Shown: piece by piece, positions 626 to 32,861 of the stretch
Layout: each line of letters starts with the position of its first letter
How positions within the stretch are numbered: the first letter of the stretch is position 1
Virus record (IMG/VR): IMGVR_UViG_3300034095_002552
Coordinates: 16,077 to 80,076 of that record
DNA length: 64,000 bases
Direction: 5' to 3' (one strand)
Source of the DNA: a virus
Notes under the pieces: model-generated
The model's input: the letters and a program-made list of their open reading frames with translations, nothing else
Told to the model about the DNA's origin: nothing
Database searches by the model: none
Made by a program: the position numbers and the translations under genes

Positions 626-3001
626 ATGGCAATATTAAGAGGGTTTCCTCCATCGAACACAATCAGTCCTAGCGTTAGAATTGCTGAAAAAGATTTAAGC
701 TATGTAGCACCAGAACAAACACTTCATCGTGCCGCACTTATTGGTTTTGCTAGCAAAGGCCCAGTAAATATTCCTACGATTATTTCTAATAGTCGTGCGT
801 TAAGAACCATATTTGGAAATCCTCATCCTCAAAGCGGAGATCCATATTTGATCTACGCAGCAGAACAATACCTCTTGGTAGCAAATGAACTTTATATTGT
901 TCGTGTTGCTGATACCGATCCAGTAAGTGATGAATGTGCAACAATAGCAGAAGTTGATGTTCCTGCTGCTGGTACAATCATTAATGTCATCTCTGATACC
1001 GCTGGACCTTATGTTTTCGATCAAGACTCCTTCTTCCGATGGAGATTAAATGGTGTTCTCAGCAATAAAACCTTAGTAGTGTTGGAAAATCACCCTGTCT
1101 ATGGTGTTAACTATTCTGTTGAAGAATTAGTGACTACCCTTAATGATCAACTTGATATTGACAATGATGGTATTGAATTTTACAAAAGTGCTACAGACAC
1201 AATTGCAGTGAGAACAGTTTGGGCATATGGCCCAGAAGCCGAATTTGAATTGGTCTCAGTACAAAATGCTATCTATGGTGGTGCAGTAATTGATGGCAAT
1301 CCAACTGGTCTTGGAACCGGAATGACTCAAGCAACCACAACTGGATCTATGGAAATGTATCCTGATGTTGCTTATCAAACCCCAGGCGATTATGATTTCA
1401 CTGGTCTTACTGGACTTAATATTCAGTTGGTTTTAGACGGAACAGACAATGTTTTAATTGATAATGTTGTTCAAGTAATTAGTTTGGAAGACTTTGAAGG
1501 TGGCGTAGCTGATATTGATAATATTATAACCAACATTAACAATCAACGAGTTTCTGGTGGCGGTACACTTCCGGGCGGTTGGATTGTAGAAAAAGTTGGA
1601 GATGGTAATTTAAAGATTTCTACATTACATCATGGTCGTGATGCTCGTTTTCGCATTAAGCCAGATAGCACAGCAGCAGGAATATTCGGACTATCTACCT
1701 TAACAAAATCTGGAGATAGCCCTAGTGGTGTAACTGGTAATACTGCTAGTGAAAGTTATGGCAGAATTAATGGTGGTGTTAACGATGGCACAATGACCTT
1801 TACCATTACCGCAGAAACTGTTGGTATAGATGGCGATTATACTCAAGTTGTAGTCAAGACTAATACTCGTGATTCTAATTGGATATTTGAAGTTTATAAT
1901 AATGGCGCACAAGTTGAATCTTGGGGTCAGCTTACAAAAAATGACACTAGCACATTCTATGTCGGAAGCTATCTCTCTCTTGTTTCTGACTATATTCGTG
2001 TAATTGATAATACTGCGACTACTGCTGGTCCTGCTGATGGTACTTATGACCTTACAGGTGGTTCAGATGGTATTCCTTCTGATCCAGATAAACAAGACTC
2101 TTTGTTGATCGGTAGTTCTGTTGGATATAATGGGATCTATGCAGTAAGTGAATCAGAACAAATTGATATCGATCTTATCGCAGTTCCGGGTCATAGTAGC
2201 ACAAGCGTTGTGACCGAACTTTTATATATGTGTCAAAACTTCCGTCAAGATTGTATGGCTATTATCGATAGTCCATTTGGTCTAACTGTAAGTGAAATCG
2301 TGTCATGGCAGAATGGAACTCATCCTTTGAACTCCACACGATTTGATAGTGATTTTGGTGCCTTGTACTGGCCTTGGGTTAAAATTCGTGACAATTACAA
2401 TCGTGTAGATGTATGGTGTCCACCTAGTGGATCTGTAATGGCAGTATATGCTAGAAGTGATAGTTTAGCTCGCCCTTGGTTTGCTCCAGCAGGTTTACTC
2501 AGAGGTTTGGTTCCAAACATTACTGATGTATACGCTAGACCAACTCAGGAAGAAAGAGACTTAATGTATGGTTATAGAAACTGTATTAATCCTATTATTA
2601 CATTTGCCGATACAGATGGTTTCGTTGTTTGGGGCCAAAAAACTATGCAACGAAGACCTACTGCTCTTGATAGGGTAAATGTTCGCAGAATGATGTTTTA
2701 TATTGAAAAGCAAATTAAAACTAGAAGCAAGGGATTGTTGTTTGATCCACATGATGATGTGTTCACAAGCAACTTTATCAGTCTTGCCACTAAAGTTCTT
2801 CAAGAAGTTCAAACGGCTAGAGGCATAACGGCATTTATCGTGAAAGCTGATGCTGAACTTAATACTTCTGATGTAATAGATAGAAATGAATTTAGGGCTA
2901 GAATTGGTGTTCAGCCTACAAGAGCAGTTGAATTTATGTTCCTTGAATTTAGTATTCATCGAACTGGTAGTAACTTTAGTGAAACTACTGACGCATTCTA
3001 A
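626..3001 (+). CDS. 18: Contractile tail sheath protein (gp18-like)
   Basis: At 791 residues this is a large sheath subunit. The N-terminus (ILRGFPPSNTISPSVRIAEKD, then a hydrophobic ALIGFASKGPVN strand) is the conserved sheath/tube-contact domain. The C-terminal third carries the conserved sheath core: the run around GLLRGLV, NPIITFADTDGFVVWGQKT, ALDRVNVRRMMFYIEKQI, and an end with an EF-R-A-IGVQPTRAVEFMFLEF strand. The middle 400 residues are a Gly/Thr/Asp-rich insertion, probably surface-exposed protrusion domains, which explains the length beyond the T4 protein (about 660 residues). It is preceded by a clear ribosome site (AAGGGAGAATAAG) and followed by the tail tube gene. Confidence 0.95.
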   Translation: MAILRGFPPSNTISPSVRIAEKDLSYVAPEQTLHRAALIGFASKGPVNIPTIISNSRALRTIFGNPHPQSGDPYLIYAAEQYLLVANELYIVRVADTDPVSDECATIAEVDVPAAGTIINVISDTAGPYVFDQDSFFRWRLNGVLSNKTLVVLENHPVYGVNYSVEELVTTLNDQLDIDNDGIEFYKSATDTIAVRTVWAYGPEAEFELVSVQNAIYGGAVIDGNPTGLGTGMTQATTTGSMEMYPDVAYQTPGDYDFTGLTGLNIQLVLDGTDNVLIDNVVQVISLEDFEGGVADIDNIITNINNQRVSGGGTLPGGWIVEKVGDGNLKISTLHHGRDARFRIKPDSTAAGIFGLSTLTKSGDSPSGVTGNTASESYGRINGGVNDGTMTFTITAETVGIDGDYTQVVVKTNTRDSNWIFEVYNNGAQVESWGQLTKNDTSTFYVGSYLSLVSDYIRVIDNTATTAGPADGTYDLTGGSDGIPSDPDKQDSLLIGSSVGYNGIYAVSESEQIDIDLIAVPGHSSTSVVTELLYMCQNFRQDCMAIIDSPFGLTVSEIVSWQNGTHPLNSTRFDSDFGALYWPWVKIRDNYNRVDVWCPPSGSVMAVYARSDSLARPWFAPAGLLRGLVPNITDVYARPTQEERDLMYGYRNCINPIITFADTDGFVVWGQKTMQRRPTALDRVNVRRMMFYIEKQIKTRSKGLLFDPHDDVFTSNFISLATKVLQEVQTARGITAFIVKADAELNTSDVIDRNEFRARIGVQPTRAVEFMFLEFSIHRTGSNFSETTDAF

Positions 3002-3023: not shown

Positions 3024-3662
3024 ATGGCAAATATGGATTTGGGAATTTTAGCTTCCGACCCACAACTAGTTTTTAAAAGAAAATATAGATGGACTTTTGC
3101 ACTAAGGTGGAACGGTCAAGACATCCCAGAAAACTTTGTTAAATTGGCAAGTCGTCCCAACTTGACAATCGAAGAAACGGAAATCAATTACCTTCATGGT
3201 AAAATGTGGATTCCTGGTAAAGCAACTTGGGAAAGCATTACTGTAACATTCTATGATGTTGCAAGTAATAGCACTAACAGCATTACCCCTCTTTATTCGT
3301 GGCTTGCATCAATCTACAATTTTCAATCTCAGAGTCCTTCCGATTCCATGAAACAGACTACCATTCAAGGTAGTTCTGAGACTGGTGGCTGGTCTGGTTC
3401 TGGTAAGTTGACAATGTATGATGGTTGTGGCAACCCTATGGAAACATGGCATTTAGATGGTGTATGGCCATCTGCTATCAACTTTGGTGATCTCGACTAT
3501 AGCTCTTCAGAAGAAGCAACTGTAGAATGCACCTTGCGTTACTATAAAGCTCGTTACGAAGCTAGAGGCTGTACTCGTCCTCCTCAACCAGTTTGTATTG
3601 GTTGCGGCCCTGGTGGTGCTGCTGGTAGTCCTTTTGCAAATGGTGCTGGCCCAATAATCTAA
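3024..3662 (+). CDS. 19: Tail tube protein (gp19-like)
   Basis: A 212-residue tube subunit. It shows the family layout: an N-terminal KRKYRWTF strand, a central L-R-ETEINYLHGKMWIPGKATWESITVTFYD block, and a C-terminal KLTMYDGCGNPMETWHLDGVWP...NFGDLDYSSSEEATVECTLRY block. These strands build the beta-barrel ring of the contractile tail tube. It directly follows the sheath gene with an AAAAGGAG ribosome site. The last 30 residues are a Cys/Pro/Gly-rich tail (CTRPPQPVCIGCGPGGAAG), which is an addition to the compact T4 tube protein. A strong hairpin follows the gene. Confidence 0.93.
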   Translation: MANMDLGILASDPQLVFKRKYRWTFALRWNGQDIPENFVKLASRPNLTIEETEINYLHGKMWIPGKATWESITVTFYDVASNSTNSITPLYSWLASIYNFQSQSPSDSMKQTTIQGSSETGGWSGSGKLTMYDGCGNPMETWHLDGVWPSAINFGDLDYSSSEEATVECTLRYYKARYEARGCTRPPQPVCIGCGPGGAAGSPFANGAGPII

Positions 3663-3759: not shown

Positions 3760-4260
3760 ATGGCTCAAATCATGGGATTTGATTTTGGACTTGAAAAAAC
3801 AGACACATGCTTCAAAAGAAAAAATAGATGGTTATTAAAAATACCAGATGTTTCTGCTACTGGTGTCGATACATTGCCTCCGACTAAATCTGCAAGACCT
3901 AGTTTGACCTATAAAACTATAGAAGCACAGCACATGCAAGAAACAATTTACTTTCCAGCAAAGCCAGAATGGAAGCCAATAACTTTAACTCTATTTGATC
4001 TTAAGAAAAATGAAAATCCTATTATAACATGGATCAAACTTATTTATCCAGCAGAAGCAACCAAAGGTAGAGGAGAAGGTTATAAAAAAGATGCAACTCT
4101 TGAACTTTATGATGGGTGTGGAGAAGTAATTGAAAAATGGGTATTTGAAAATACATTTATTGAAAATGTAGAATTTGGAGAATTAGATCATAGCGATGCA
4201 GGTGTTATCTATATAGACCTTACGCTAAGATATGACAGAGCTTATTACGAGCCAGTCTAA
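3760..4260 (+). CDS. Second tail-tube-like protein (paralogue)
   Basis: A 166-residue protein that repeats the landmarks of the preceding tube gene: an N-terminal FKRKNRWLLKIPD strand, a central KTIEAQHMQETIYFPAKPEWKPITLTLFD block, and a C-terminal ATLELYDGCGEVIEKWVFENTFIENVEFGELDHSDAGVIYIDLTLRYD block. The shared YDGCG, FGELD/FGDLD and TLRY motifs make paralogy plain. It lacks the insertion and the Cys-rich tail of the larger copy. A second tube-fold protein may be a tail-tip or tube-initiator ring, or a minor tube subunit. It is transcribed separately, being behind a terminator, and its stop overlaps the opposing gene's stop by 4 bp. Confidence 0.88.
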   Translation: MAQIMGFDFGLEKTDTCFKRKNRWLLKIPDVSATGVDTLPPTKSARPSLTYKTIEAQHMQETIYFPAKPEWKPITLTLFDLKKNENPIITWIKLIYPAEATKGRGEGYKKDATLELYDGCGEVIEKWVFENTFIENVEFGELDHSDAGVIYIDLTLRYDRAYYEPV

Positions 4261-8459: not shown

Positions 8460-9497
8460 ATGGCGGACGATACATTTAGACCACAACGAGCAGAAGGTGC
8501 TACACCACCACCAGTAAACATTACTGGCAATGTTCCCCAAGAGTTTATTCAAGCTATAAACCAACAAGCAGAAAAACAGCAAACCCCAGAATCTTCTTTG
8601 CAAAAGCCAAATCAAAATTTTAGTTCTATAAGAGATAGAGAAAATGCGAACGCAAATGCACCGCAACGACCTACACAAGTGTCACAAGGTCAATCTGGTC
8701 ATCTTAAAGAACTTCTTGAAGGATTGAAGGGTTCCACCTCTCAATACGAAGAAATCTTATTGCCGTCTAAGGGCAAATTTTATGACGGCACAAATGGTCC
8801 TTCCGATGGTATTATCAATTTGCGACCAATGACTGGAGAAGAGGAACAAATTTTAGCCACTCCAAGATTTGTCCGCAAAGGACAAGCCATTAATATGATT
8901 TTCCAAAAATGTATTAAAGAAAACTTTAAGGTAGAAAACTTTTTGACTGTTGATCGAACTTATATGCTTTTGTATCTTCGTGGTATTTCATATTCGACAA
9001 GTTACGACATTGAAGTTAAATGCCCTGAGTGTTCATCAAAATTTGGCACAAACATCGATTTAAGTTCTTTGTATGTGAATCATTGTCCTGTAGAGTATGG
9101 CCCAATTCTTGAAGATGTACTTCCAAACACCAAGTTGAAGTTCCATTATAAATTGTCAACTGGTAGAGATGAGCAGGAAATCAATGAGTATCGTGAACGC
9201 AGGATGAAGCAATTTGGAGATAGTGCATCAGATGATACTTTAACTCATCGAACCGCACAATTGCTAGAAGACATTGATGGAATCAATGACAAATCAGAAT
9301 TGCAAATACTTTTAAAGAATTTGCCAATTAGCGATGTATCCTATATTCGCAGTGTAATCAATGAGCCTCCTTTTGGCGTGGATACAAACATTGAAATCAA
9401 TTGCCCAAGTTGCACCGCTGAATTCTCTATTGATCTGCCACTTGAATCAAATTTTTTCTTCCCCCGGAGGAAGAGGGAAAAGAACACCCTAGCCTAA
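8460..9497 (+). CDS. 26: Baseplate hub / tail assembly protein of the T4 gp26-like baseplate family (zero-frame product)
   Basis: 345 residues. The first 95 are disordered (Pro/Gln/Asn-rich). From about residue 98 the T4 baseplate-family core appears: LPSKGKFYDG, INLRPMTGEEEQILATPRF, MIFQKCIKENF, YMLLYLRGISYSTSYDIEVKCPECSSKF with a CxxC, and a second zinc knuckle near the end (INCPSCTAEF). In T4 this family forms the baseplate hub; in other phages it sits where tail-assembly chaperones lie. The AGGAG ribosome site is strong. A slippery sequence near the 3' end and an open -1 frame point to a second, longer product. Confidence 0.8.
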   Translation: MADDTFRPQRAEGATPPPVNITGNVPQEFIQAINQQAEKQQTPESSLQKPNQNFSSIRDRENANANAPQRPTQVSQGQSGHLKELLEGLKGSTSQYEEILLPSKGKFYDGTNGPSDGIINLRPMTGEEEQILATPRFVRKGQAINMIFQKCIKENFKVENFLTVDRTYMLLYLRGISYSTSYDIEVKCPECSSKFGTNIDLSSLYVNHCPVEYGPILEDVLPNTKLKFHYKLSTGRDEQEINEYRERRMKQFGDSASDDTLTHRTAQLLEDIDGINDKSELQILLKNLPISDVSYIRSVINEPPFGVDTNIEINCPSCTAEFSIDLPLESNFFFPRRKREKNTLA

Positions 9498-9685
9498 CTC
9501 TGGGGAAAAATTTACTAGAGGAAATTTTCTTCTTTATGTATCACATGCATATGGACATGCAAAAAACATTATCGATACCGATAAATGTAAGACAATGGCT
9601 TGTTACCAGATACATTGAGCAAAAAGAGAAAGAAAATGAATCTATGGAAGCAGAGAAGCGAAGATCATCATCTAAGAGAAGATAA
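9449..9685 (+). other. Predicted -1 frameshift site and 76-codon extension of the baseplate-hub gene
   Basis: In the zero frame the bases A AAT TTT (9449-9455) form a canonical X-XXY-YYZ heptamer, overlapping T TTT TTC. A short hairpin (CTTCC/GGAAG, 9458-9473) follows at once. The -1 frame is open from there to TAA at 9683 and encodes an extension with LLEEIFFFMYHMHMD and WLVTRYIEQKEKENES. This is a helical, hydrophobic-then-charged segment like those found fused to tail-assembly chaperones. No ATG, GTG or TTG with a ribosome site precedes the helix; the first ATG (9536) would cut it. The fusion would be about 408 residues. Confidence 0.6.
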
Positions 9686-10491: not shown

Positions 10492-11532
10492 ATGTCATTT
10501 GATGATAAATGCGATTTCTGGATAAAAACCAATCAAAATGTTTTATTGGTTGGAAAACATGGCGTTGGAAAAACCGCAATAATAAAAAATTCCTTCGAAA
10601 GAAATAACTTAAAGTGGAAATACTTTAGTGCTTCTACCATGGACCCATGGACTGACTTTGTTGGAATTCCCAAAGAAACATCATCAATAATAGATGGAAG
10701 GCAAGTAAGTCACTTGCAATTCATAAGGCCACTAGAATTTGCCACTGGGGAAATTGAAGCTTTATTTTTTGATGAATTTAATAGGAGTCCGAAAAAAGTA
10801 AGAAACGCTGTTATGGAGCTTTTACAATTCAAATCAATAAATGGAGAAAAATTTCCAAATTTAAAAATCATTTGGGCAGCGATAAATCCAGATGATGATG
10901 AAAATGCATATGATGTAGAAAAATTAGATAAGGCACAACTTGATAGATTTGAAGTTCAACGCAATATTGAATATAGGCCAGACGCTGAATTTTTTAGAAA
11001 CAAATTTGGGCAGTCATTAGCCGATAGCTCTATAAGCTGGTGGAATGAGTTAGATGAAGATTGTAAAAATTTAGTTTCTCCAAGAAGACTTGAATACGCT
11101 TTGAATTTCTTTTCTATGAGAGGCGACCTAAGAGATATATTGCCTAAAGAAACAAATGTATCTAAATTGTTGCAATTACTAAAAGAAGGTCCGACTAGTG
11201 ATAAACTTGCAAACTTTTTAAAAGATCAAAATAAGGAAGAAGCAAAATTATGGCTTCAAAATGAAAACAACTATTCGTCTGCCGTAAGATATATTGTTGG
11301 AAGTAAAACTCTTACAGATTGGTTTGTTCCGTTGATGAATAAAGAGAAGATAATTTCTCTTATGAGTCAAAATGAAAAAATAACAAAATATATTTTTAAC
11401 AATATAAATTGTCCAATATTTTCTGAGATATGCAAAGATATTTTAGATGCAAAAGCAGACACGAAAATGATAACAAAAATAAGAAAATATCTTACTCAAA
11501 ATCCAGAAATGTCTAAAATCCTATATAAATGA
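10492..11532 (+). CDS. MoxR-type AAA+ ATPase
   Basis: 346 residues. Walker A GKHGVGKT is at 22-28 with the preceding hydrophobic strand; Walker B ALFFDEFNR is at about 90-98. Sensor 1 is IIWAAINPDD, and an arginine-bearing QLDRFEV motif is typical of MoxR/RavA proteins. The C-terminal 150 residues are helical and less conserved. MoxR ATPases work with VWA partners to remodel or mature other proteins, and the partner gene follows after 6 bp. Such pairs occur in large phages, where their target is unknown. Translation is probably controlled by the hairpin over its ribosome site. Confidence 0.85.
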   Translation: MSFDDKCDFWIKTNQNVLLVGKHGVGKTAIIKNSFERNNLKWKYFSASTMDPWTDFVGIPKETSSIIDGRQVSHLQFIRPLEFATGEIEALFFDEFNRSPKKVRNAVMELLQFKSINGEKFPNLKIIWAAINPDDDENAYDVEKLDKAQLDRFEVQRNIEYRPDAEFFRNKFGQSLADSSISWWNELDEDCKNLVSPRRLEYALNFFSMRGDLRDILPKETNVSKLLQLLKEGPTSDKLANFLKDQNKEEAKLWLQNENNYSSAVRYIVGSKTLTDWFVPLMNKEKIISLMSQNEKITKYIFNNINCPIFSEICKDILDAKADTKMITKIRKYLTQNPEMSKILYK

Positions 11533-11538
11533 GTTGCG

Positions 11539-12870
11539 ATGAAAGTCGATCATAACGAATGGTTAGAAATAGCAAATAGACTTGAGTGTCATCATGCTAT
11601 ATTCTATAAACTTTGGTCTATAGGAAAACCAGTTCTAAACAATTCAATTGATACTGCTGCTGTATCTTTTGACAAACTTGGTAATTTTATTTTATTTCAG
11701 TTCAACGAAAACTTCTGGTCTAATTTAGACATGGATGGTAAACTATTTGTCATTTGTCATGAAATGCTTCACATAATATTAAATCATGGAAAAAGATCAA
11801 AAAACACATTGTCTGAAAATAAAATAGCTGCGAATATGGCATTGGATATAGTTGTAAATCACAGTTTAATAAATTCATTTGGATTTGACAGAAAAAACAT
11901 AAGTAAATCTTTAAACACTGCGTTTAATGAAATGGGCATTGATGGAACCAAAGAATCCGATTGCTTATGTTGGGTAGATAATATATTTCCAGATAAAAAA
12001 TTAGATGACAATCAATATTTTGAATTTTATTTCAATCAATTTAAAAAACAATATGGTGATGGTTTACCAAACATGGCATTAAAAGCAAACAATGGATGTC
12101 TAGATGATCATAGTAAAATTGAAGAGAATGAATGGAGAGAAGTGTTTGAAAAGCTTTCTTCAGACCTTTCAAATGGAGAAACAGAATCCATAAAAGATTT
12201 TGTAAACAAAAACTTTTTATCGGAAAATCAATCAAAAATATATCAGATGTTTGATAAAGGAAGTTCAAAAAGTGACAATTGGGTTTTCTGGAAAGATACC
12301 AAAATAAAAAAAAGAAAGAAGTGGGAGTCTGTAATAAAAAATTGGGAAATGAAGCTTTTGAATGAAGTTTATTCAGATCACGAACAATGGGCAAGAATAG
12401 CAAGAAGATACCAAGCTATCTCCAGTGATTTCTTTATTCCTAGCGAAATAGAAATGTATCATCATGGTTTAGAAGAAAAAAAAATAGAAGTATTTTTCTT
12501 CTTAGATACTTCTGGTAGTTGTTGGAATCTTAAAGATAGATTCTTTAATGCAGCATCTTCTTTATGTAAGAGAAAGTTTAAAATACGATTATTTTGCTTT
12601 GATACTGTTGTCAAAGAGACAACTCTTGAATCAAAAAAAATATATGGTGGTGGCGGAACAAGTTTCAATATATTAGAAGAATTTGTATACAATCAAATAA
12701 ACGAAAAAAGAATAAATCATCCAACTATATTTGTTTTAACCGATGGATTTGGAGATAATATATTCACAAAAAATCCAAACAAATGGCATTGGTTTTTGAC
12801 AGAAAATGGAACAATAAATTGGATTGATAAAAATTGTAAAAAAATATACAGTTTAAAGGATTACGATTAA
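11539..12870 (+). CDS. VWA-domain protein with N-terminal putative metallopeptidase domain
   Basis: 443 residues. The N-terminal half contains an HExxH motif (HEMLH, residues 74-78) followed by NHGKR, as in the putative metallopeptidase domain of DUF2201-type proteins. The C-terminal third is a VWA-like domain with a MIDAS-type FFLDTSGSC at about 317-325, a GGGGTSF loop and FVLTDGFGD. This is the standard partner of the MoxR ATPase upstream, so the pair probably acts as a metal-dependent chaperone or protease complex. Its stop codon shares the tetranucleotide TTAA with the opposing STAS gene. Confidence 0.83.
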   Translation: MKVDHNEWLEIANRLECHHAIFYKLWSIGKPVLNNSIDTAAVSFDKLGNFILFQFNENFWSNLDMDGKLFVICHEMLHIILNHGKRSKNTLSENKIAANMALDIVVNHSLINSFGFDRKNISKSLNTAFNEMGIDGTKESDCLCWVDNIFPDKKLDDNQYFEFYFNQFKKQYGDGLPNMALKANNGCLDDHSKIEENEWREVFEKLSSDLSNGETESIKDFVNKNFLSENQSKIYQMFDKGSSKSDNWVFWKDTKIKKRKKWESVIKNWEMKLLNEVYSDHEQWARIARRYQAISSDFFIPSEIEMYHHGLEEKKIEVFFFLDTSGSCWNLKDRFFNAASSLCKRKFKIRLFCFDTVVKETTLESKKIYGGGGTSFNILEEFVYNQINEKRINHPTIFVLTDGFGDNIFTKNPNKWHWFLTENGTINWIDKNCKKIYSLKDYD

Positions 12871-14896: not shown

Positions 14897-15415
14897 CTAA
14901 AGATTTGTCAAAGGCCCAGTACTTCCGCCTAATGGTATTTCTGGTTCTGGAGGTGGGCCACCAGGCGAAACTGGATTGGTTAATTTTACAGATTGCGGAA
15001 TTACCGCTTTTATATCTGCTTTTTGCGGAGAATCAATTCCTTTTTCTTCTGGCTGTTTAGATGGTGAAGTTCCAATATCTGTTATTGGAGTTCCTAATCC
15101 CTCTGCAATTTTCTTCAATCCATTTTGAAATACCTTAATTGCTTCTGGTAATGGCATTTTATTAGAACCATCTAATGATTTGCATATTACCAAGACGGCA
15201 TTTCTTATTTGGACTAAATATTGCTTTAGATCCCTTGGCCAGTCTGCTCGTATTATCGCTTGTATTCTTGCAACTATATCTTCTGCAAAGACAGTGAGGC
15301 TTTTTCCCTTTTTGTCAATCTCTTGAGATAAATCTTCTAAAGAATTAAGAATATCACCTATTCTAATTCCTAGATCGGTTTTGTTTTCTGTAAGTAAAAA
15401 TTGTTTGAAATTCAT
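14897..15415 (-). CDS. Unknown protein with capsid-targeting-like N-terminus and Pro-rich tail
   Basis: 172 residues. The N-terminus MNFKQFLLTE resembles the T4 capsid-targeting sequence (consensus like MKTYQEFIAE, cleaved after an L/I-x-E). The middle is helical (residues 15-115), and the last 55 residues are Pro/Gly-rich (VSPGGPPPEPEIPLGG). Its ATG overlaps the CTP synthase stop (ATGA). It may be an internal head protein, which is inference from the N-terminus only. Confidence 0.68.
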   Translation of the reverse strand: MNFKQFLLTENKTDLGIRIGDILNSLEDLSQEIDKKGKSLTVFAEDIVARIQAIIRADWPRDLKQYLVQIRNAVLVICKSLDGSNKMPLPEAIKVFQNGLKKIAEGLGTPITDIGTSPSKQPEEKGIDSPQKADIKAVIPQSVKLTNPVSPGGPPPEPEIPLGGSTGPLTNL

Positions 15416-17052
15416 ACCTTATTTATGGCTTCACCAGTTGCTTTTTTATGTATTATTGCAGCAGCAATCAATCCTACGAACAAAGGTGCTGCGGCTGTTA
15501 GTTTGCTTTTAAATTCTGGGTGGGCTTGCGTTCCTACAAAATAAGGATGAATATCCCTATTTAATTCCATAATTTCTACAAGATTAGTTTGAGGGTTTCT
15601 GCCACTCACAATAAAACCTTTAGTTTCAAGCTGAGAAACATATTCCTCATTAACCTCATAGCGATGCCTATGTCTTTCTTGAATTATTTTTTGACCATAT
15701 AATTCATAAACAATTGAATCTTTTTTCAATTCACAATCATATGAACCAAGCCTCATACTTGCAGCTTTTTTAACAATAGCCTCTTGTCCTTGAACGAACT
15801 TAACAACAGGATATTTCGTTTCTTTGTCAAATTCCATACTATTTGCATCATCTAATTTACAAACATTTCTGGAATATTCGATGACGGCACACTGCAATCC
15901 TAAACATATTCCTAAAAATGGAACTTTCTTTTCACGAACATATTGAATGGCTTTTATTTTCCCCTCAATGCCACGATTGTCAAAACCTCCAGGGATAATA
16001 ATACCATCCAACTCATCAAAAATTTTGTGCAAACCTCTATTGTCTTTGTATTTTTCCAATTCTTCGCTTTTATACCATTTAATTAGAACTTTAGAATCAT
16101 TAGCAATTCCAGCATGCAATAACGCTTCTTTTAGAGACATGTACGCTTCATCGCAATTATCGTACTTTCCAAAAATTCCAATAGTCACAGGCTGAAGATT
16201 ATTGTTGATGTATTTTTCAACAACATCTCGATACTTGTGTATTCTGCATGAACTTCTGTTTAAATGTAACAAATCAACAAATAAATCATCTACATGACGA
16301 TCATAAAATGAAAGAGGAACTTGATAAATTGATTCAAAGTCGGGAGCATCAAAAACACATTCTCTAGTGACATTAGAAAGTTGAGAAACTTTTTTCATGA
16401 CTTTGTCTGGTACGGAGCTTTCTGTTCTGCAAAAAAGAACATCTGGCTGAAGTCCGTGTCTTTGCAATTCTTTTACAGCATTTTGCAAAGGCTTAGTCTT
16501 GAATTCTTTGATTGTTTTAACCCAAAGAATTGGAGCGACCATAACAATCAAAACATTAGCACGATGAATTTGTTTGAATAATCGAATAGATTCAAAAAAA
16601 GCAAAGCTTTCTGAATCTCCGACTGTACCACCAACTTCCGCAATAACAATATCGTGACTTTTCCCTAAATCAACTAATCTTTTTTCAATTTTATCGGTTA
16701 GATGGGGGTTAACCTGAATAGTTTCACCAAGATATTTACCATGCTCTTGTTCTTCGATTAATTCTTTTTGAAGAATTCCATGTGTGCAAATATTGTTTTT
16801 ACTAACTGTTATTCCAGCAATTCTTTCGTAATGACCAAGATCCAAATCTGTTTCAGTTCCATCATCACAAAGGAAACACTCGCCATGTTCTCCTGGCCCA
16901 AGAATACCAGCGTTGATATTGTAATATGGGTCAAATTTAACTAGCGTAATATTATGACCACGAAGCCTTAGTAGAAGGCCTATACTAGCAGCAGCCACAC
17001 CTTTTCCTGTTCCAGAAATAACACCACCAACTACAAAAATGTATTTAGCCAT
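15412..17052 (-). CDS. pyrG: CTP synthase
   Basis: Full length at 546 residues. The synthetase domain begins KYIFVVGGVISGTGKGVAAASIG, with a modified P-loop, and continues FDPYYNINAG, GEHGECFLCDDGTETDLDLGHYER. The glutaminase domain (from about 290) has the oxyanion/nucleophile motif GICLGLQ near 383 and the His-Glu pair in GTQAHPEF. All catalytic elements look intact, so it should convert UTP, ATP and glutamine to CTP. A phage-borne copy is unusual and would enlarge the CTP/dCTP pool alongside the adjacent ribonucleotide reductase. Ribosome site GAGG is present. Confidence 0.96.
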   Translation of the reverse strand: MAKYIFVVGGVISGTGKGVAAASIGLLLRLRGHNITLVKFDPYYNINAGILGPGEHGECFLCDDGTETDLDLGHYERIAGITVSKNNICTHGILQKELIEEQEHGKYLGETIQVNPHLTDKIEKRLVDLGKSHDIVIAEVGGTVGDSESFAFFESIRLFKQIHRANVLIVMVAPILWVKTIKEFKTKPLQNAVKELQRHGLQPDVLFCRTESSVPDKVMKKVSQLSNVTRECVFDAPDFESIYQVPLSFYDRHVDDLFVDLLHLNRSSCRIHKYRDVVEKYINNNLQPVTIGIFGKYDNCDEAYMSLKEALLHAGIANDSKVLIKWYKSEELEKYKDNRGLHKIFDELDGIIIPGGFDNRGIEGKIKAIQYVREKKVPFLGICLGLQCAVIEYSRNVCKLDDANSMEFDKETKYPVVKFVQGQEAIVKKAASMRLGSYDCELKKDSIVYELYGQKIIQERHRHRYEVNEEYVSQLETKGFIVSGRNPQTNLVEIMELNRDIHPYFVGTQAHPEFKSKLTAAAPLFVGLIAAAIIHKKATGEAINKV

Positions 17053-31370: not shown

Positions 31371-32861
31371 ATGGCAGATAATCAACTTTGGGCATGGGGA
31401 GAGGGAAGTGCAGGACAATTAGGAGATGGAACGGAAGTAAACAAATCGTCTCCTGTTCAAGTCTCTGGTTCCAACTCCAACTGGAGAAGCGTTTTTAGTG
31501 GTCTTTTTCATACTGTTGGCATCAAAAAAGACAACACCCTATGGACTTGGGGTGTCAATTATGCAGGACAATTAGGAAATGGAACCATCGACAATAGCTC
31601 GTTACCGATACAAATTGGAGAATCTAATTGGAGCCAGTCTTCATGTGGTGGTTTCCATACAATAGCAATAAAGACTGATGGAACGCTATGGTCTTGGGGC
31701 GAAGGTTCGTTTGGCGAACTCGGAGACGAAACAACAACAGGTAGATCTTCACCAGTACAAGTCGGCAACCAAACGACTTGGAAGCAAGTTTCGAGTGGTG
31801 TTTTTACCGTTTCAGCAATAAAGACCGATGGAACGCTTTGGTCTTGGGGCGAAGGTCTTTCTGGACAAGTAGGGAACGGAGAAACAGGAGTATGGAGTTC
31901 GCCAGTACAAGTCGGCAACCAAACGACTTGGAAGCAGGTTGCTAATGGCTATAATCACACCGCAGCAATAAAGACCGATGGCTCGTTATGGGCTTGGGGA
32001 GAGAATTACTTGGGTCGATTGGGAGATGGAACGACAGATGATAGATCATCTCCAGTACAGATTGGGAACGAAACAAACTGGAAGCAAGTAGATTGCGGAG
32101 GCACACATACGGCTGCGATAAAAACGAACGGAACACTTTGGGCTTGGGGCGAAGGTTCAGATGGACAATTAGGAAATGGACAGACAAATTCTTTTTCTTC
32201 CCCGATACAGGTAGGAAACGGAAGCAATTGGTCGAAGGTTTCCTGCGGATCAGACTTTACCTGTGCTGTTAAGACCGACAAGACCATGTGGACTTGGGGA
32301 GAGAATTATAATGGTAAATTGGGAGATGGAACGACAGAAGACAAATCATCACCAGTCCAGATAAGTGGCGAAAAATATTGGGGAGATGTGGATTGTGGCT
32401 CTTACCACGCCATGGCTATAACTAGTAATCCTCCAGCAAGGTTCAATTTTGTACATCCGACTTATAAATTCGAAGTGGTTACATATACACCAGAAAGCCT
32501 AATAGCTCTGGCTCCTTATCCAGACTCATTAGAGCATCTGATTTTGAACCTACAGGCTCAGGAAGTAGTAATCAACAACAAAAGTTACAGGCATGGAGAT
32601 CAGTTCACGGAATTTGGTTCAAGAGCCATACGACTCAAACAATTGTATGTTGATTCCAGCAATCCCGTACTGAAAATAGTTTGTGACGCTGGTTACAGAT
32701 TTGAGAATAACAGATGCGTTCTTGATTGCCTTGAAAGCGAAACGGCATGCAGTGGCGTTTGTTCCGATCTGCTTACTGATAATGACAATTGCGGAGAGTG
32801 TGGTAATGTTTGTCCAGATGGATTTGCATGCACAAATGGAGTTTGTGCAACACCATCATAA
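31371..32861 (+). CDS. RCC1-type seven-bladed beta-propeller protein with Cys-rich C-terminus
   Basis: 496 residues. Seven copies of the RCC1 repeat (LWxWGEGxxGQLGDGT...SSPVQV...W..V.CG..H..AIKTDG) span residues 1-350, the number that closes a propeller. A 90-residue linking domain follows. The C-terminus has ten cysteines in the pattern C-S-x-V-C, NCGECGNVC, ACTNGVC, as in secreted proteins of Myxococcota-like bacteria. There is no signal peptide, so it is probably carried on the virion, perhaps as a receptor-binding or glycan-binding part. Repeats share long identical DNA stretches. Higher G/C third positions suggest transfer. Confidence 0.88.
   Translation: MADNQLWAWGEGSAGQLGDGTEVNKSSPVQVSGSNSNWRSVFSGLFHTVGIKKDNTLWTWGVNYAGQLGNGTIDNSSLPIQIGESNWSQSSCGGFHTIAIKTDGTLWSWGEGSFGELGDETTTGRSSPVQVGNQTTWKQVSSGVFTVSAIKTDGTLWSWGEGLSGQVGNGETGVWSSPVQVGNQTTWKQVANGYNHTAAIKTDGSLWAWGENYLGRLGDGTTDDRSSPVQIGNETNWKQVDCGGTHTAAIKTNGTLWAWGEGSDGQLGNGQTNSFSSPIQVGNGSNWSKVSCGSDFTCAVKTDKTMWTWGENYNGKLGDGTTEDKSSPVQISGEKYWGDVDCGSYHAMAITSNPPARFNFVHPTYKFEVVTYTPESLIALAPYPDSLEHLILNLQAQEVVINNKSYRHGDQFTEFGSRAIRLKQLYVDSSNPVLKIVCDAGYRFENNRCVLDCLESETACSGVCSDLLTDNDNCGECGNVCPDGFACTNGVCATPS
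31752..31936 (+). repeat. Near-identical repeat units within the RCC1 gene
   Basis: A 35-nt stretch at 31752-31786 recurs without change at 31902-31936, a 150-bp offset equal to one propeller blade, and flanking blade sequence is also nearly the same. This points to recent blade duplication or gene conversion. Confidence 0.85.

Follow-up and report, generated by a model that had tools for sequence, protein, structure and literature searches.

The gene at 8460-9497 of the window, the 64-kb stretch of an 80-kb virus record that was analysed here, very probably encodes a tail-assembly chaperone pair similar to lambda G/GT, with a G protein of 345 residues and a GT protein of about 408 residues produced by a -1 frameshift. 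Several observations underlie this assignment, 1) the genes themselves, 2) a slippery heptamer that is invariant and in phase, 3) selection on the domain encoded in the -1 frame, 4) the lack of a start codon for that domain in the window and 5) parallels with T4 and with phages in which the pair lies beside the tape measure gene. From these we infer that slippage occurs, at some rate, and that the products have the binding partners proposed below. A preliminary description of this DNA had regarded the gp26-like gene as a G/GT-type pair, and that view is strengthened by membership of PF12322, by the invariant heptamer and by the purifying selection on the -1 domain. The features are collected in Table 1.

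Table 1. Positions of the chaperone locus features and of the tail genes in the window
Feature	Position	Strand	Basis or remark
Tail sheath gene	626-3001		Contractile-tail set, upstream of 8460-9497
Tail-tube paralogue 1	3024-3662	+	Contractile-tail set
Tail-tube paralogue 2	3760-4260	+	Contractile-tail set
G (short form), PF12322 T4_baseplate / gp26-like, 345 aa	8460..9497	+	Pfam, PHROG
A AAT TTT, overlapping T TTT TTC and less conserved	9449..9455	+	27/37 relatives
Conserved slippery heptamer T TTT TTC, proposed -1 slip site	9452..9458	+	78/78 distinct relatives
T domain, -1 frame ORF, 77 codons and TAA (9683-9685)	9452..9685	+	Alignments, dN/dS, AF2
G/C-rich hairpin CTTCCCCCGGAGGAAG of the preliminary description, not conserved	9458..9473	+	5-bp stem in 12/37
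Alternative, more stable stem 3' of the slip site, unconserved, possible stimulator	9462..9505	+
G (zero-frame) stop codon TAA	9495..9497	+
First ATG of the -1 frame	9536..9538	+	Residue 29, misses most of helix 1

The G protein

The zero-frame product is a member of Pfam family PF12322 (E 9.9e-20; 71.6 bits against a curated cut-off of 24.5), in agreement with the gp26-like family originally assigned to it, and also matched PHROG 150, 'baseplate hub', with an E-value of 3.5e-22. It carries two zinc-ribbon-like CPxC motifs. In the phage collection its nearest match was LR756511, a 595-kb uncultured phage, at 41% identity, and a single protein query found no bacterial homologues. The AF2 model of G was poor, with a mean pLDDT of 54.8, and the structure search returned no solved relative.

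The slippery heptamer

The zero-frame codons at the site are TCA AAT TTT TTC TTC CCC, so that two canonical heptamers, A AAT TTT and T TTT TTC, overlap in the phase required. The preliminary description had read the codons correctly and had placed A AAT TTT in the zero-frame phase. As a conserved slip site, however, that heptamer was abandoned, since AAATTTT was present in only 27 of 37 relatives while the heptamer three bases downstream was invariant.

The first set consisted of 60 loci, the window's own and 59 relatives from viral_contigs. The gene end was present in 56 of them (L040, L054, L057 and L059 end earlier), and these gave 36 distinct -1 ORFs, or 37 with LR756511 added, that form 15 clusters below 70% nucleotide identity. 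In-phase TTTTTTC was found in 37/37. Because the first site finder itself sought TTTTTTCTT, the survey was redone with the T domain alone as the query. Its core patterns lie away from the site, and the query contains the two Phe residues, though not their codons. This search recovered 80 loci, 66 of them distinct and 41 new, with TTTTTTC in 66/66. In the 41 new loci, G ended 28-55 bases past the start of the heptamer and none had T fused in frame to G. When both surveys were pooled, all 78 distinct variants had in-phase TTTTTTC, which is the conservation among relatives that had been suggested as a check, and the codon preceding it ended in T in every one.

The heptamer is rare elsewhere. No other in-phase copy occurred within 13,422 codons of the 37 genes, and there were three, the slip site included, in the 21,045 codons of window ORFs of at least 100 codons. 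In the same 37 genes, AAT makes up 0.62 of the Asn codons and TTT and TTC account for 0.60 and 0.40 of synonymous use, so that the product of the three background frequencies is about 0.15. The chance agreement of all 15 clusters is then roughly 1e-12, a figure that rests on the rough assumption of independent clusters.

A homopolymer of six Ts in 37/37 genes could also allow RNA polymerase to slip, in which case the GT message would arise by transcription rather than on the ribosome. Polymerase slippage usually needs longer homopolymer runs. The run was exactly six in all 37 genes, never longer, and always ended in TTC, which is the phase for tandem tRNA slippage. Transcriptional slippage is, on these grounds, a very improbable source of GT.

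The open -1 frame

The -1 frame contained no stop in 2,808 codons when the 37 relatives were combined, while the other two frames had 166 and 137 stops in 2,771 codons each. Most of the substitutions, counted in the -1 frame, fell in third positions, and the median dN/dS of the T domain was 0.24 (43 pairs with usable dS, of 666). As judged from these alignments, purifying selection acts on the -1 domain. Thirteen positions were invariant among 18 aligned sequences. The AF2 model (mean pLDDT 85.4) consists of three helices, the second short and the third long. The open -1 frame and the helical protein noted at the outset both stand. No significant fold match was obtained with the T model; of the first 14 viral matches, two were named tail assembly chaperones (E 0.97 and 3.9). 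Assignment of T to DUF6760 (PF20546) was rejected at 14.1 bits against a cut-off of 27 (E 0.003), though the match lay exactly on the -1 ORF. Membership of phrog_634 was likewise discarded, with no profile match for G000 or LR756511.

Relatives with a T-like frame

Of the 49 phage records matched by the window G protein, 16 were examined. Ten combine a T-like -1 ORF with T TTT TTY in phase. The heptamer is T TTT TTC in LR756511, Sf-FS3 and the isolated phages Atu_ph07, XaC1, 121Q, MIJ3, RaK2 and Vibrio 2.275.O; the isolated phages XacN1 and RAS14 have T TTT TTT. In the other six, SP15, LIS04, Strep GXN1, Mel-JY01, LR756508 and Slickus01, the T-like ORF was in +1 (loci L062, L063, L064, L065, L067 and perhaps L066); that of Slickus01 was recognised by eye only. 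The first five of these had no T TTT TTC listed in phase, and their +1 ORFs were mostly unannotated or annotated in truncated form. In SP15 and LIS04 the G/T pair lies directly between the tail tube and the tape measure, which is the classical place for G and T and agrees with the G/GT reading that had been put forward for the window gene.

The cyanophage-type phages resemble the window in having an in-phase TTTTTTC and a -1 ORF. Among 80 loci (L075-L154), of which two were truncated and 56 were distinct, the heptamer was found in 56/56, ten bases 5' of the gp26 stop. Unlike that of the window, the downstream ORF has its own ATG in all 56, located at +5 from the gp26 stop. Upstream of the heptamer, 51 of the 56 carry GGAGGG or GAGGG, which stops 9 nt short of it, although GAG is elsewhere the minority Glu codon in these genes (361/1,367). 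The element is too distant from the ATG to serve as its ribosome-binding site. The stimulator of the dnaX frameshift has a similar upstream placing, which the cyanophage element resembles. In the window clade, by contrast, an upstream Shine-Dalgarno-like stimulator was absent from 30 of 37 members.

Possible starts of the T domain

The T domain might instead be a separate small protein, made by internal initiation or by coupling to the G stop, as cyanophage gp51 is annotated. The cyanophage-type ATG would suit such a mechanism, as would the TAATG in LR756511 and 121Q, the ATGA in Atu_ph07 and the ATG, GTG or TTG that precedes the FFF of helix 1 in the T frame of 49 of the 78 clade variants. 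In the window, however, no ATG, GTG or TTG occurs between the slip site and this FFF, and 28 further variants are also without one (29/78). The stretch has one CTG and one ATT, neither with a Shine-Dalgarno-like word. Helix 1 is predicted at T residues 13-31, so that the first ATG falls near its end; the preliminary description was correct that no start codon covers this helix. Moreover, candidate T starts with a Shine-Dalgarno-like word of at least 5 were found in 0 of 78 variants, and the -1 ORF of MIJ3 is entirely without ATG, GTG or TTG. Finally, the heptamer is invariant even where an ATG is at hand, as in the 56 cyanophage-type loci. The starts in 49 of the 78 variants mean that internal initiation could still take place outside the window's own subgroup, and as a general explanation a separately initiated T is very improbable.

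Relatives that carry the downstream protein as a separate gene with its own start had been named in advance as evidence against a frameshift. Such an arrangement was found only in distant relatives. The cyanophage-type phages do have a separate ATG, yet keep the in-phase heptamer, and in T4 the downstream domain is part of a second gene.

An assembly or sequencing indel that split one continuous gene, conceivable at a homopolymer, is already refuted, since the run of six Ts in 37/37 comes from many assemblies, the heptamer and both frames are kept in 78 distinct variants and in isolated phages, and 100%-identical contigs were obtained from other metagenomes.

RNA structure at the proposed slip site

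The small G/C-rich hairpin that had been offered as a possible stimulator did not hold up as a conserved element, and was rejected as one common to the relatives, its 5-bp stem being present in the 12 members given in Table 1. The alternative stem of the window has a minimum free energy of -21.1 kcal/mol (z -2.7). Folding at the site in 27 relatives was no stronger than in control stretches (mean z -0.49 versus -0.29, P 0.23), and folding of the alignment gave a single stem, of 6 bp, in which no pair had changed on both sides. A conserved downstream structure was rejected on these two results, and no conserved stimulator was found in the relatives.

Relation to T4 gp26 and gp51

Both gp26 and gp51 of T4 matched PF12322. 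Among the 12 records searched, T4 had two matches over the cut-off and each other record one; G002 had a second match below it. The PF12322 gene was single in the 595-kb LR756511 and in six other full records. T4 gp26 ends where PF12322 ends and has no extra domain, while gp51 continues into a fused segment that matches phrog_634, and in T4, therefore, duplication seems to have taken the place of frameshifting. The T4 proteins thus differ from the window pair in being encoded by two separate genes for which no frameshift is needed, and the extra C-terminal part of gp51 resembles the T ORF of the cyanophage-type phages.

The profile phrog_634 matched the Sf-FS3 -1 ORF with an E-value of 4e-28. 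In profile comparisons, the cyanophage T ORF matched the gp51 tails (probability 96.7%, E 3.7e-10), as did the 121Q-type T ORFs (E 2.7e-5). The window T domain matched the 121Q-type ORFs weakly (E 4.6e-4), a score equalled by 0 of 200 column-shuffled controls, and extension of the set by the +1 group gave 90% and E 1.7e-6. Direct comparison of the window T domain with the gp51 tails or with the cyanophage ORF gave no match, and the match of the extended set to the cyanophage ORF was equalled by 9 of 200 shuffles. The link between the window T domain and gp51 is indirect and would run through these intermediates.

A broader reading, which we judge about equally likely to be right or wrong, is that the whole T4 gp26/gp51 family descends from an ancestor in which frameshifting joined a small T domain to a PF12322 G domain. 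The frameshift would have been kept, as T TTT TTY and -1, in the huge phages, in cyanophages and in several jumbo phages, and re-set to +1 in phages of Gram-positive hosts and others (SP15, LIS04, Strep GXN1, Mel-JY01, LR756508 and perhaps Slickus01). In T4 it would have given way to duplication with in-frame fusion, gp26 corresponding to G and gp51 to GT. If so, cyanophage 'gp51' would be mostly the tail of a gp26-gp51 fusion, the synthesis of which would be stimulated by the dnaX-like upstream Shine-Dalgarno-like element.

Proposed mechanism

Translation of the zero frame would give G, the short form of the tail-assembly chaperone. A fraction of the ribosomes that reach T TTT TTC would slip by one base towards the 5' end, together with both Phe-tRNAs, and read the -1 frame to its stop. 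The predicted GT consists of 333 G residues and 75 T-frame residues, the helical T domain replacing the last 12 residues of G. By analogy with lambda G/GT, many copies of G may coat the tape measure protein while a few copies of GT may recruit tail-tube subunits. The likeness to the lambda proteins (TAC-N/TAC-NC) lies in the short and long forms with a common N-terminal part, the slip near the 3' end and a C-terminal domain that is small, helical and encoded in -1; the window G differs in belonging to PF12322, in its zinc-ribbon-like motifs and in its slip site, T TTT TTC.

Relation to earlier work

Vladimirov and colleagues are said to have already named T4-like chaperone genes and poly-T signals in 2022. 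Frameshifted G/GT chaperones are described as well known in excerpts of PMC5009743, and poly-T -1 signals in the TAC-N genes of T4-like phages are mentioned in those of PMC12846349, citing Vladimirov et al. 2022. The latter excerpts also report that the TAC locus of the Vandenendeviridae (phage Adele) has a poly-T motif at which -1 frameshifting is conserved, and a T ORF formerly annotated as hypothetical; Adele belongs to a different phage group from the window and its motif is GTTTTT. PMC3004832 counts gp26 and gp51 among the hub-assembly chaperones and calls gp51 essential, with a function that is unknown. A literature search on PF12322, DUF6760 and frameshifting in phage chaperone or hub genes found no paper on this clade. 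In view of the prior poly-T and T4-like chaperone work, the novelty is modest. The kind of mechanism is known and the window clade adds a strongly supported case, while the family-wide evolutionary picture may be found in part in Vladimirov et al. 2022. The single-gene relatives, which seem to make both forms, suggest testable G and GT roles for gp26 and gp51, and the T domain has been missed or misannotated in many large-phage genomes.

Gene neighbourhood

The sheath and tube genes lie 5' of the PF12322 gene in the window, and the two tail-tube paralogues adjoin each other. A tape measure gene was not found among those of the larger ORFs of the 80-kb record that were scanned. Shortly 3' of the chaperone region, 10492-12870 (+ strand) encodes an AAA ATPase and, after it, a metallopeptidase-like protein of the DUF2201 type, which together resemble a MoxR/VWA pair. 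At 15412-17052 on the - strand the phage carries a CTP synthase gene of full length (PF06418, E 9e-92), and the product of 31371-32861 (+ strand) resembles phage families of the RCC1 type ('regulator of chromosome condensation').
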